A stretch of 36,238 nt of DNA from Nitrososphaerota archaeon (GTDB lineage: Archaea > Thermoproteota > Nitrososphaeria > Nitrososphaerales > UBA57): contig JAPUKB010000106.1 of NCBI GenBank assembly GCA_027295865.1, forward strand, positions 1 through 36,238, written 5' to 3'. Below are positions 4,604-10,764 of the stretch, one piece after another. Every line of letters starts with the position of its first letter. Positions within the stretch are counted from its first letter, which is position 1. Position numbers and translations under genes: made by a program. The notes under the pieces were generated by a model, which worked only from the letters and a program-made list of their open reading frames with translations, was not told the origin of the DNA and did not search any database.

Positions 4604-6826
<2,223 letters not shown>

Positions 6827-6860: not shown

Positions 6861-7376
6861 CTACTCGACCCTTATAGTCTTGTCCTTCTTTGGCTTCTTT
6901 AGAGAGAACTCGAGTTCTAGGACCCCGTTTGTGAGTTTTGCAACCGGTGTTTGCGAATCTACGTCTGCTGGAAGGTCTACCTCGGCATGATAGTCCCGGG
7001 TGTCGTGCTTCGCGGTAATGCTTACCGACTTCTCGCCAGCGTTGATTTGGACGTCTTCCTTCCTCACTCCAGGCAATTCCGCAAGAATTCGGACTTTGTT
7101 TGTCTTGTCGTCACGTACTATCTCAGTGTAAGGTTCCGTTGCTTCGCCGTCTGGTAACCTTCCGCCTCGCTGTTCAGGCCTCATGTTACCGAATTCTCTC
7201 ACAATTGGCTGACCGTCCGATCCTAGCGTGACACTGTACCCATACACATACGGGCCATAGCTTCGCACATCCATCCCTCTACTTCCAGACGAGAGAGCCT
7301 CACCGATGCTCATCTCCATTTCATGGAAAATCTCATCAAAGAGCTTTCCAAAGGACCTGTTGTCATTCCATGTCAT
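6861..7376 (-). CDS. hsp20: small heat-shock protein, Hsp20/alpha-crystallin family
   Basis: A 171-residue ATP-independent holdase. The N-terminal region (1-80) is variable and rich in Gly/Tyr (GPYVYGYSVTLGSDGQP). The alpha-crystallin domain covers about 85-165, with ILAELPGVRKEDVQI, the strand SVSITA, and the LTNGVLELEF signature (the A-x-x-x-n-GVL motif). It ends in KKDKTIRVE, close to a C-terminal I-x-I/V anchoring motif. The ATG at 7376 has a purine-rich AGGAAGTGA upstream. It heads an operon with cdc48. An inverted repeat covers the predicted start site, arguing for repression in unstressed cells. Confidence 0.92.
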   Translation of the reverse strand: MTWNDNRSFGKLFDEIFHEMEMSIGEALSSGSRGMDVRSYGPYVYGYSVTLGSDGQPIVREFGNMRPEQRGGRLPDGEATEPYTEIVRDDKTNKVRILAELPGVRKEDVQINAGEKSVSITAKHDTRDYHAEVDLPADVDSQTPVAKLTNGVLELEFSLKKPKKDKTIRVE

Positions 7377-7392
7377 TATTCATTCACTTCCT

Positions 7393-7415
7393 GTTAGTAA
7401 CATTATGTTACTAAC
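7393..7415 (-). promoter_or_regulatory. perfect inverted-repeat operator of hsp20-cdc48
   Basis: GTTAGTAAC (7393-7401), five bases, then GTTACTAAC (7407-7415): a perfect 9-bp inverted repeat with a 5-bp spacer. It lies between the TATA box (7419-7430) and the hsp20 ATG (7376), on the predicted transcription start. A dimer of a winged-helix protein would fit the 14-bp centre-to-centre spacing and block the polymerase. A related 23-bp site lies upstream of the neighbouring ArsR-type regulator and shares the 12-mer GTTACTAACTAG. Confidence 0.75.
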
Positions 7416-7418
7416 TAG

Positions 7419-7430
7419 ATATATATAAAC
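7419..7430 (-). promoter_or_regulatory. TATA box of the hsp20-cdc48 operon
   Basis: On the minus strand GTTTATATATAT, a strong archaeal TATA box. Initiation about 25 bases downstream would be near 7400, inside the inverted repeat at 7393-7415, leaving a short leader with AGGAAGTGA ahead of the hsp20 ATG. Confidence 0.65.
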
Positions 7431-7444
7431 GTTCCTAGATTAGA

Positions 7445-8158
7445 TTACGTCCAAAGGAGCTGAATGGAGAATCGACGCTCCAGTTCCTCGATCGTTTCCT
7501 TGATCTCCTTCTCGCGTATGTTGAGCTCTTCCGAGAGTACTTCGATGTCTGGCCTCTCGGAGGATCCAAGCATTGAATAGAGAATCCGTCTTCCTAGTCC
7601 ATCTTCCAAAGATTCCCGTATCATGGTATGAGCCTTTTGCAGTGCTTGCTGCTTCACTCTCAGTAGGGCAAACTTTTCTTCCTCCAGCTCCTTGGTCCTC
7701 TCATCTAAGTCGTGCACCAATGAATCAGTTTTCTTCAGGACCGTCGCGATCTCTTTGGCTTTTTCGACCGCCTTTAACTCGGACAGGAGTTCTCTAAAGC
7801 CTGCCGTACTAGAGGGTGAGGAGAGCGCTTCTTCTCCACTACCTGCCAAGCTTTGGATATCTATGTTGACTGCATCACCCGAAATGCCAACGCTCAAAGA
7901 CAGTGACTTGCTAAGTCTATAGTACTTGCGGTCAGGGGCCGCTAGATCGCTCTTTGCCCGAAACGAGCTGACCAGGCCAAACTCTACGAGCAGAGATAGG
8001 TGCTTCAGGACTGCTTGCTGACTTACCCCGAGCTCTCTAGAAAGCTGAATGAAATACTTTGGTTCGTTAGCCAGTATCTCCAAGATCCGTCTTCTTGTAA
8101 CATTCCCGAGTAAGTCCAGTAGGGTACCAGCTTCATCATCCATTCCTGAACATATCAA
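7445..8158 (-). CDS. ArsR-type winged-helix regulator with coiled coil and second C-terminal helix-turn-helix; probable heat-shock regulator
   Basis: A 237-residue regulator. The N-terminal winged helix (about 8-75) has LGNVTRRRILEILANEP, recognition-helix region QLSRELGVSQQAVLKHLSLL and wing RKYYRLS. A middle segment (about 120-185) is a long charged coiled coil (DERTKELEEEKFALLRVKQQ). A C-terminal HTH-like part carries IEVLSEELNIREKEIKETIE. It sits directly upstream of hsp20-cdc48 on the same strand, 68 bases away, and both promoters carry related inverted repeats. This resembles the logic of the euryarchaeal Phr regulator, which controls hsp20, an AAA+ ATPase and itself. The TTG at 8158 lies 25 bases from a TATA box; an ATG at 8143 is an alternative start. 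Confidence 0.8.
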   Translation of the reverse strand: MICSGMDDEAGTLLDLLGNVTRRRILEILANEPKYFIQLSRELGVSQQAVLKHLSLLVEFGLVSSFRAKSDLAAPDRKYYRLSKSLSLSVGISGDAVNIDIQSLAGSGEEALSSPSSTAGFRELLSELKAVEKAKEIATVLKKTDSLVHDLDERTKELEEEKFALLRVKQQALQKAHTMIRESLEDGLGRRILYSMLGSSERPDIEVLSEELNIREKEIKETIEELERRFSIQLLWT

Positions 8159-8178
8159 TCTCCAATTGGAGATGATCT

Positions 8179-8186
8179 CTTATAAG
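8179..8186 (-). promoter_or_regulatory. TATA box of the ArsR-type regulator
   Basis: CTTATAAG, palindromic, centred 25 bases upstream of the TTG at 8158 and 40 bases upstream of the ATG at 8143. A second weaker TAGTATA (minus strand, 8195-8201) abuts the operator-like repeat and is an alternative. Confidence 0.5.
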
Positions 8187-8200
8187 CTTTCTCTATACTA

Positions 8201-8223
8201 GTTAGTAACTTACCGTTAGTGAG
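8201..8223 (-). promoter_or_regulatory. operator-like repeat upstream of the ArsR-type regulator
   Basis: Plus-strand GTTAGTAAC (8201-8209), five bases, then GTTAGTGAG (8215-8223). One half-site is identical to that in the hsp20 operator and, with its flank, extends to a shared 12-mer (minus strand GTTACTAACTAG). The other half matches at six of nine positions when aligned in the same orientation. Spacing is the same 9-5-9. It lies upstream of the TATA box and overlaps the 3' end of ncs6. It suggests autoregulation, possibly with weaker binding. Confidence 0.55.
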
Positions 8224-9187
8224 ACTTCCCTTCTCGTGACCTCTCGACAAGATCAATCCGTTGCCAGTCAGATACGACATTCCTCATTTGACATACAGAA
8301 CAAACAACCCCAGAGGTTGGGAATCCGCACTCCGCGCACAAGTTGATCTCCCTCTGCTGGACGTTTTCGATGTTGCTCGCCACTTTGAGGACTGATCTGA
8401 GACCGATATACTTCATTCCAGGGTGGGCCCTCTCAAGTTTGTTCAGTATCTCCCTCATTTCGGATCTTATGCTTTCATTCATATGAGGGCATGTCTCAGA
8501 TTGTAACGGTAAATTGTTGGTGAATGCGTAAAACGCGATCTCCTCTTCGTATATCTCCATGAAAGGTTTGATTCGTCTGAAAGCAAAATCAGTGTTGTGT
8601 TTGATCGCTGGATCCATCCATCTAATCCTTTCCACATCACCGCTGAATAGATTCATGAGAAAAGTCTGAAGGAAATCATCGAGATTATGACCCGTCGCAA
8701 TTACATCTGCTCCAACCTTTTGTGCGCCTATCTCAAGTGCCCTCCGACGAAATGTTCCGCATACCGTGCATGAGGCGATTCTCTTTCCCTTCCTTTTTTC
8801 TAAAACGTCGTCGAGCCCGGTTCCAAATAGCTCCTTAAACGAGACAGTAATCTGCTTCACCCCCAGCCGGGAAGATAACTCAATCGCGTTCTGAATCGCC
8901 TCGTCTCGATACCCCTCAACCCCCTCATCGACCGTTACAGCGAATAATTCTGAACCGTGCGGAATAACTATCTTGCTCAGCACATGGAGGAGAGAGAGGC
9001 TATCCTTCCCGCCTGACACTCCAACGGCCATCTTAGTACCATACTCGAGCATACCGAACTTTGAGATGGTCCTCCGTGTCTTCTCTATGATTGAATGAGA
9101 ATAGCATGGGGAGCAAAGTTTGACCCCCGAATATCTTCGCCCATACACTGCCCCCTTACCACATTTACTACACGGCCTTTCGTTCAT
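8216..9187 (-). CDS. tRNA 2-thiolation enzyme, TtuA/Ncs6 (Ctu1) family
   Basis: A 323-residue PP-loop ATPase of the group that adds sulfur at C2 of tRNA uridine or thymidine. Motifs: N-terminal zinc site C6-x2-C9 and C25-x2-C28, PP-loop SGGKDS at 58-63, C140-x2-C143 with C233 (the three cysteines that hold a [4Fe-4S] cluster in TtuA), GHNLDD at 166-171, and a second zinc site C284-x2-C287 with C296-x2-C299. Whether the target is U34 (Ncs6) or U54 (TtuA) cannot be decided from sequence alone. A TATA-like box lies 27 bases upstream of the ATG, so the transcript is probably leaderless. Confidence 0.9.
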   Translation of the reverse strand: MNERPCSKCGKGAVYGRRYSGVKLCSPCYSHSIIEKTRRTISKFGMLEYGTKMAVGVSGGKDSLSLLHVLSKIVIPHGSELFAVTVDEGVEGYRDEAIQNAIELSSRLGVKQITVSFKELFGTGLDDVLEKRKGKRIASCTVCGTFRRRALEIGAQKVGADVIATGHNLDDFLQTFLMNLFSGDVERIRWMDPAIKHNTDFAFRRIKPFMEIYEEEIAFYAFTNNLPLQSETCPHMNESIRSEMREILNKLERAHPGMKYIGLRSVLKVASNIENVQQREINLCAECGFPTSGVVCSVCQMRNVVSDWQRIDLVERSREGKSH

Positions 9188-9900: not shown

Positions 9901-10764
9901 TTGAGCCTCCTTATCCATTCATCTTTTGGCAGACAGATCGGGAACTCAGAAGGCCAAGTCGAAGCCGATTTTGAAACAGTGGACATTAAGGTAATTGTTT
10001 ACAGGGATGGTGTTTCAGTGATAAGCCAAAACATCACCGTGATCGACATTGTTCCACAGGTAAGTGTAGGCCTACTATCGGTGGAGGCAGAGAACGTATT
10101 GGTGGGAGACGAAGTCGGCGCTCCCCTGGGATACCAGATCCGCAACCGGACAATAATAATTGACACTCTTGGTGCCACTAGTGTATTTATCACCTATCAA
10201 ACCACCCAACTGACAGATAAGGATGGACCGATCTGGAGTTTTAATCTTAGCCTCCATAATCCTGCGAGTATAATTCTTCCAGATAGATCAACGATCGTCT
10301 TTCTTAATGAGATCCCTGATTCCATTACCACTCTTCAAAACAGAACCGCCCTGTTTGTCGGAGAAGGGGATTGGCTCATAAAGTATATTCTGCCTTTACA
10401 GATCATACCAGGGCAGGGTGAAATCGATTCAGTCTCCAGATCTGAAGATCCTTTCGCATTTGTCAACAATAACCTGTTTCTCCCCGTCATTGTCGCTGCC
10501 ATTATGATTAGTGGTATTGCTATCTATATTCGCAGGTCCGGGCGGAGCCTTCGTCATGCTTCAGTGAATCTTAGACCAGAGGAAGAAGAAGTACTCAGAT
10601 TCATCAGGGAACAAGGTGGAATGGTCTTGGAGTCGGAGTTGAGGAAGAAGTTCATTCTGCCAAAGACCAGTATGTGGCGGATGGCAAAGCGACTCGAAAG
10701 AGCCGGCCTAGTCAAGATCAACAGAGTCGGCCTCCAAAATGAAATTGAACTCGTTAGGCGGTAA
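9901..10764 (+). CDS. membrane-anchored winged-helix transcription regulator
   Basis: Domain order: an extracellular beta-rich domain of about 185 residues with several N-x-S/T sites, one membrane helix (about 190-209, FLPVIVAAIMISGIAIYI), and a cytoplasmic winged helix of about 65 residues (RPEEEEVLRFIREQGGMVLE, then SELRKKFILPKTSMWRMAKR). This layout matches archaeal membrane-associated one-component regulators, which sense outside and bind DNA inside. The only ordinary start is TTG 9901, which cuts a signal peptide in half. Reading upstream in frame to a CTG at 9868 gives LRRHVFISFVILSLLIHSSF, a convincing signal peptide. The true start may be that CTG, four bases after the marC stop. The sensed signal is unknown. 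Confidence 0.75.
   Translation: MSLLIHSSFGRQIGNSEGQVEADFETVDIKVIVYRDGVSVISQNITVIDIVPQVSVGLLSVEAENVLVGDEVGAPLGYQIRNRTIIIDTLGATSVFITYQTTQLTDKDGPIWSFNLSLHNPASIILPDRSTIVFLNEIPDSITTLQNRTALFVGEGDWLIKYILPLQIIPGQGEIDSVSRSEDPFAFVNNNLFLPVIVAAIMISGIAIYIRRSGRSLRHASVNLRPEEEEVLRFIREQGGMVLESELRKKFILPKTSMWRMAKRLERAGLVKINRVGLQNEIELVRR

Follow-up and report, generated by a model that had tools for sequence, protein, structure and literature searches.

Gene Organization and Promoter Elements of the Locus

The window, i.e., the whole 36,238-nucleotide stretch of Nitrososphaerota archaeon DNA analysed here, carries four consecutive genes on its minus strand: an ncsA-like gene (8216-9187), the directly downstream gene of a regulator (7445-8158; 237 amino acids if read from a TTG codon, with a likely ATG start at 8143), hsp20 (6861-7376), whose product scores 148.2 bits against the archaeal small heat-shock protein model NF041800 (cut-off 140), and cdc48 (4604-6826), which encodes a VAT-type AAA+ ATPase passing the curated CDC48 cut-off (TIGR01243, 1016 bits). 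The hsp20 and cdc48 genes are spaced by 34 bp and are probably co-transcribed.

Upstream of hsp20 lies operator O1 (7393-7415, no strand assigned), a perfect 9-5-9 palindrome (GTTAGTAACATTATGTTACTAAC) whose arms, GTTAGTAAC-N5-GTTACTAAC, show no mismatch in the window sequence, and which was assessed by a shuffle test, a genome scan and comparison with relatives. The hsp20 TATA box (TTTATATA, 7422-7429, minus strand), assigned by TATA matching and from the sequence, stands 6 bp upstream of O1, and the gap from O1 to the minus-strand hsp20 ATG (at 7376) is 17 bp. The usual distance from the centre of a TATA box to the start of transcription is about 26 bp, so that hsp20 transcription is predicted to begin inside the palindrome. 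A first-pass annotation of this DNA had described a 9-5-9 repeat covering the hsp20 start site; the repeat is indeed perfect and, lying 6 bp past the TATA box and 17 bp before the ATG, it covers the predicted transcription start but not the start codon.

A second operator, O2 (GTTAGTAACTTACCGTTAGTGAG, 8201-8223, no strand assigned), is located 5' of the regulator gene, where it overlaps the 3' end of the ncsA-like gene. It differs from O1 by 3 mismatches and carries 13 of the 15 consensus letters; GTAAC-N5-GTTAG is contained in O2 and GTAAC-N5-GTTAC in O1. In agreement with the first-pass annotation, this is a related 9-5-9 site that has a 12-mer (CTAGTTAGTAAC) in common with O1, the two copies being on opposite strands. 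The probable TATA box of the regulator gene (CTTATAAG, 8179-8186, minus strand) lies 13 bp downstream of O2; this is a reading by eye, and the automatic TATA match at this gene chose a different spot.

Elsewhere in the window, a plus-strand gene (9901-10764) encodes a probable membrane-anchored regulator, which combines an outer part and a single hydrophobic segment (seen by eye) with a C-terminal winged helix that gives a DUF7343/MarR-like match below cut-off.

Occurrence of the Operator in the Window and Its Genome

At up to three mismatches, O2 is the only other match to O1 in the 36 kb of the window, and 100 dinucleotide shuffles of the window gave 0 matches at the same tolerance. In the organism's own genome (G000; 1.28 Mb, 84.9% complete) O1 is the only exact match. 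The observed palindrome pair is real and far above chance.

The first-pass annotation had pointed to chaperone genes elsewhere in the genome as places where the repeat might recur. The search did return one further match at up to three mismatches (G000:C78:1755), and no chaperone adjoins it: this operator-like site (L003, G000:C78:1755-1777; 14/15) is found downstream of an ORF that, by eye, looks metallo-beta-lactamase-like. A 2-mismatch scan of the own genome likewise returned C78:1755 (14/15), together with two contig-end matches and one on C103, with no recognised chaperone adjoining.

The Regulator Protein

A domain search matches the regulator to the HTH_5/ArsR winged helix. Among proteins of solved structure, its best homologue is Phr of Pyrococcus (2p4w; E of 1.3e-19 by sequence and 2.1e-33 with a profile), and the second best is SurR, aligned over most of the regulator length. 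Against the NCBIfam Phr model (NF053602) it scores 73.7 bits, under the curated cut-off of 320, and by that curated standard it is thus not a Phr orthologue. An AlphaFold2 model (41 sequences, mean pLDDT 87.8) comprises a winged helix and a long helix (residues 137-183), followed at the C-terminus by a small unit of helices (187-230). The top structure match to this model is again Phr 2p4w (164 residues aligned, with Z 14.1 and rmsd 5.6; Foldseek E of 3.3e-11 and 1.4e-10), and it covers residues 6-183, so that the putative C-terminal HTH falls beyond it. SurR is the next family, with an alignment that includes the C-terminal part, where the HTH profile PF22315 gives an E of 0.0099 and 16.6 bits, below its cut-off of 27.

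The model corresponds to a winged-helix protein of the Phr/HSR1 type, in which a long coiled coil follows the ArsR-type winged helix. The first-pass annotation had taken the coiled coil and a second HTH as departures from Phr. According to the model, Phr and the regulator have the coiled coil in common. The putative extra C-terminal HTH appears SurR-like rather than new. The Phr-like gene set that had also been proposed (regulator, hsp20 and AAA+ ATPase) is borne out by the gene order, the curated models for hsp20 and cdc48 and Phr as the best structure match.

Conservation of the Operator in Relatives

The exact pattern GTTANTAACNNNNNGTNANTAAC, with 15 fixed letters, was scanned in 400 genomes of the class Nitrososphaeria. 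It occurs in 9/400, at a single place each, and this place is directly upstream of hsp20 in 9/9; the reversed pattern occurs in 5/400. The regulator is found at E<=1e-20 in 8/9 of the exact-pattern genomes versus 73/400 overall. The ninth genome (G036) has a divergent related regulator (REG2-type) beside hsp20-cdc48 and no match to the window's type of regulator (REG), and the site is thus not proof of this regulator.

A broader set comprised 96 hsp20 upstreams (61 relatives searched, 56 genomes represented), a site being defined as at least 12 of the 15 letters or the core TAAC-N5-GTTA. Counted by gene, a site stands at 29/62 hsp20 upstreams with a regulator match in the genome versus 1/34 without; counted by genome, the figures are 29/38 and 1/18 (Fisher p 4.5e-7), the sole site-bearing genome without a regulator match being G036. 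The hsp20 site is absent in 9 regulator-bearing genomes. Among close relatives, where the first-pass annotation had expected the repeat to persist, it does so at hsp20 in G003 (14/15), G007 (14/15) and G008 (15/15) of the window's family, but not at the scored hsp20 genes of G002, G005, G006 and G009, which are among those 9; the regulator search gave no match in G001 and G004 of the same family. In G053, a 15/15 site lies 214 bp from hsp20 (L069), beyond the stretch scanned for hsp20 upstreams.

The operator was also sought in the 200 bp upstream of the regulator genes of named loci. The tree clade of the window's regulator (22 rows, support 95/81) extends to Hecatella and two further rows from Bathyarchaeota or Thermoproteota, and 20/22 of its rows carry a site of at least 12/15 upstream of the regulator, with L063 and L069 reaching 11. 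The core is present in 4/4 of the Marsarchaeota-type regulator rows. No site of at least 12/15 was found in the remaining rows (0/55), and the distant regulator clade (~30% identity, mostly Nitrososphaerales) was accordingly rejected as an operator carrier. Site-bearing rows have the recognition helix QQA[VI]LKHL (24/24); in most of the others it is QQLVAKHL or similar. Upstream of distant-clade regulators, TACAACC-N7-GATAAC, with the same 14-bp step, is seen in L027, L031, L102, L105, L119, L120, L132 and L134-L136.

Specificity was assessed over 22 loci picked for holding the regulator (the window, L058-L077 and L087; 260,815 bases), many of which are close kin and hence do not amount to 22 independent trials. 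Matches of at least 13/15 fall at 32 start positions, 32/32 of them upstream of REG, HSP20, CDC48 or THS, compared with a mean of 0.1 in ten first-order shuffles and 2-3 for three permuted patterns. As a separate target, cdc48 fared poorly: 3/28 of its upstreams (28 of 31 places) reach 12/15 and 0/28 reach 13, in keeping with its being the second operon gene in many of these genomes. An ACTAAC-N8-ACTAAC direct repeat (14-bp step) was considered as a separate site type; it fits the thermosome/regulator intergenic sites, yet forms part of the same 23-bp arrangement, and was set aside.

Other arrangements were encountered at these promoters. The REG2 clade (18 rows, support 100/99; L176-L189, L191-L193, L195) is divergent from hsp20-cdc48 and has the core in 14/18 promoters, and in some REG2 genomes the REG type is divergent from the thermosome (by eye); a division of labour between the REG and REG2 paralogues is possible. 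Variants of the 9-5-9 form with CAC/GTG inner arms, GTTAC[AT]CAC-N5-GTGAGTAAT and CTTACTCAC-N5-GTGAGTATC, occur at hsp20 promoters (L210, L213, L214; family f8) and cdc48 promoters (L295-L298). In lineages without the regulator, TGTAAT-N4-ATTACA (or TGTCAT-N4-ATTACA) lies just after the hsp20(-cdc48) TATA box in 8/10 upstreams inspected (L149, L163, L168, L169, L171, L235 and L238, family f10, and L158, f8), and the hsp20 upstreams of L239 and L150 have the form TGTCAT-N4-ATGACA. Such promoter palindromes suggest that these archaea use another heat-shock regulator.

Thermosome Promoters

The regulator gene and a thermosome gene are divergently oriented in L065-L068 and L071-L075, and the latter group has hsp20 and cdc48 after the regulator. 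In the thermosome direction, the site between the two genes usually reads GTTAGTG[AT]C-N5-GTTAGTATC and follows a TATA-like box by 7-14 bp, and L067 has a second thermosome gene with its own copy of the site. Within the window's family, the thermosome promoters of G002 and G005 carry GATACTAAC-N5-GTGATTAAG (13/15). Among thermosome upstreams in 19 regulator-bearing genomes, 7/30 reach 13 letters and 10/30 reach 12. Judging from these promoters, the regulon in sister families appears to include the thermosome. The regulon that the first-pass annotation had called self-contained is so in the window, but not, it appears, in those families.

The own genome holds three thermosome genes. Thermosome control there was rejected for the two that were scored (L055, L056), which reach 9-10 of 15; the promoter of the third (L057) was read by eye rather than scored. 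The regulons of Phr and HSR1 are stated to exclude thermosome subunits in the accessible part of one source (PMC10653856), and a search for thermosome control by the Phr/HSR1-type family found no paper within the portions of the literature it covered.

Comparison With Known Archaeal Systems

A review (PMC9133787) describes a CTAAC-N5-GTTAG site for Archaeoglobus HSR1, which precedes the HSR1 gene itself and has hsp20 as a downstream gene; for Phr, it lists the elements TTTA, TGGTAA and AAAA. Published accounts also describe hsp20 and AAA+ targets for Phr, with an operator over the start site (PMC9133787; PMC10653856), and place both Phr and HSR1 in arCOG01684, with the suggestion of an ancestral role (PMC5852551).

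O1 and O2 agree with the published HSR1 motif at 8/10 and 9/10 letters, respectively, and TAAC-N5-GTTA is present in both; given GTAAC-N5-GTTAC and GTAAC-N5-GTTAG in the window sites, their core is that of HSR1. Similar to HSR1 (AF1298) of Archaeoglobus fulgidus, as described in the review, the window's regulator is linked to hsp20 and an AAA+ ATPase and has an identical core site. Unlike in that system, hsp20-cdc48 and the regulator each have a separate operator-bearing promoter here, and the operator of the regulator's own gene lies upstream of the TATA box. Additionally, the window site has the extended form GTTA-n-TAAC-N5-GTTA-n-TAAC, a comparison made with the HSR1 motif as quoted in the review.

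The system also resembles that of Phr from Pyrococcus furiosus in the winged helix and long coiled coil of the regulator, in the linkage to hsp20 and the AAA+ ATPase and in an operator over the (predicted) start. It differs from Phr in that the regulator stays below the NF053602 cut-off and has its putative C-terminal HTH outside the Phr structural match, and in that TGGTAA is absent, by reading, from the window's hsp20 promoter, where the Phr site is not present. The first-pass annotation was thus right that the operator does not resemble the Phr site. A precedent exists nevertheless, the core of the operator being the published HSR1 site. Systems of this kind have been demonstrated experimentally in Pyrococcus and Archaeoglobus; new here are the very different archaeal lineage, a site extended to 23 bp, the operator placement at the regulator's own gene and, in relatives, the connection to the thermosome. 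As predicted from promoter sequences, the site is a conserved HSR1-type operator in Nitrososphaerales.

Proposed Mechanism and Alternatives

At chaperone genes of relatives the operator starts 3-14 bp after a TATA-like box (6 bp in the window), the transcription start being predicted rather than mapped, and at the regulator's own gene the best TATA match is 11-16 bp downstream of the operator in 9/11 rows (13 bp in the window by eye). Very probably, the adjacent Phr/HSR1-type regulator represses hsp20-cdc48 through O1 and is released on thermal stress, a reading that draws on the order of the genes, the predicted structure, the uniqueness of the site across the genome and its conservation in relatives. 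At normal temperature, a presumed dimer of the repressor would sit on O1, past the TATA box and over the start, where it would block the recruitment of RNA polymerase and keep hsp20-cdc48 expression low. Heat, the presumed signal, or unfolding stress would then release the repressor and induce hsp20-cdc48. Bound at O2, ahead of the TATA box, the regulator would also act on its own gene. Autocontrol from this position is probably not simple start-site occlusion, and either activation or neutral binding is conceivable.

Alternatively, the regulator could mainly sense another stress, be it redox, as does SurR, or metal, as does ArsR/SmtB, with the chaperones as a general stress output. Its winged helix is of the ArsR type, and its second-best homologue, SurR (PF0095 of Pyrococcus furiosus), combines an ArsR-type N-terminal HTH with a C-terminal HTH, as the regulator appears to do. 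However, the CxxC motif that serves as a redox switch in the HTH domain of SurR is replaced by EPKY in the regulator, whose single cysteine is near the protein start, and the apparent targets, which around the 22 regulators are chaperones and the regulator itself, also differ from those of SurR; we regard this alternative as unlikely. It is distinctly unlikely that the palindrome is a real hsp20-cdc48 site read by another protein, e.g., a REG2 relative, while the adjacent regulator serves something else. Such a reader would account for G036, where the exact operator accompanies a REG2-type regulator without a REG match, and for the core at 14/18 REG2-linked hsp20 promoters, but not for the site in the regulator's own promoter in 20/22 clade members or for the way the operator tracks the regulator's recognition helix, and a search of G000 with the REG query gave one match only. 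That short, AT-rich arms merely formed palindromes by chance in AT-rich promoters is scarcely credible and is ruled out by the comparative data, given 0 expected from shuffles and placement at hsp20 in 9/9 genomes.

Tentatively, and with rather more doubt than confidence, the HSR1-type regulator-operator pair could predate the split of Nitrososphaeria, Bathyarchaeia, Marsarchaeota and Archaeoglobi and, in Nitrososphaerales, run the whole core chaperone set, including the thermosome, in a position-dependent manner, acting as a repressor over chaperone starts and as an activator or neutral autoregulator upstream of its own TATA box. The predictions yield targets that can be tested, among them the thermosome of several families, and a regulon signature that can be computed for uncultured lineages. 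With an HSR1-type site conserved in Nitrososphaeria, Bathyarchaeota and Marsarchaeota-type loci alike, this control would reach another major archaeal branch.
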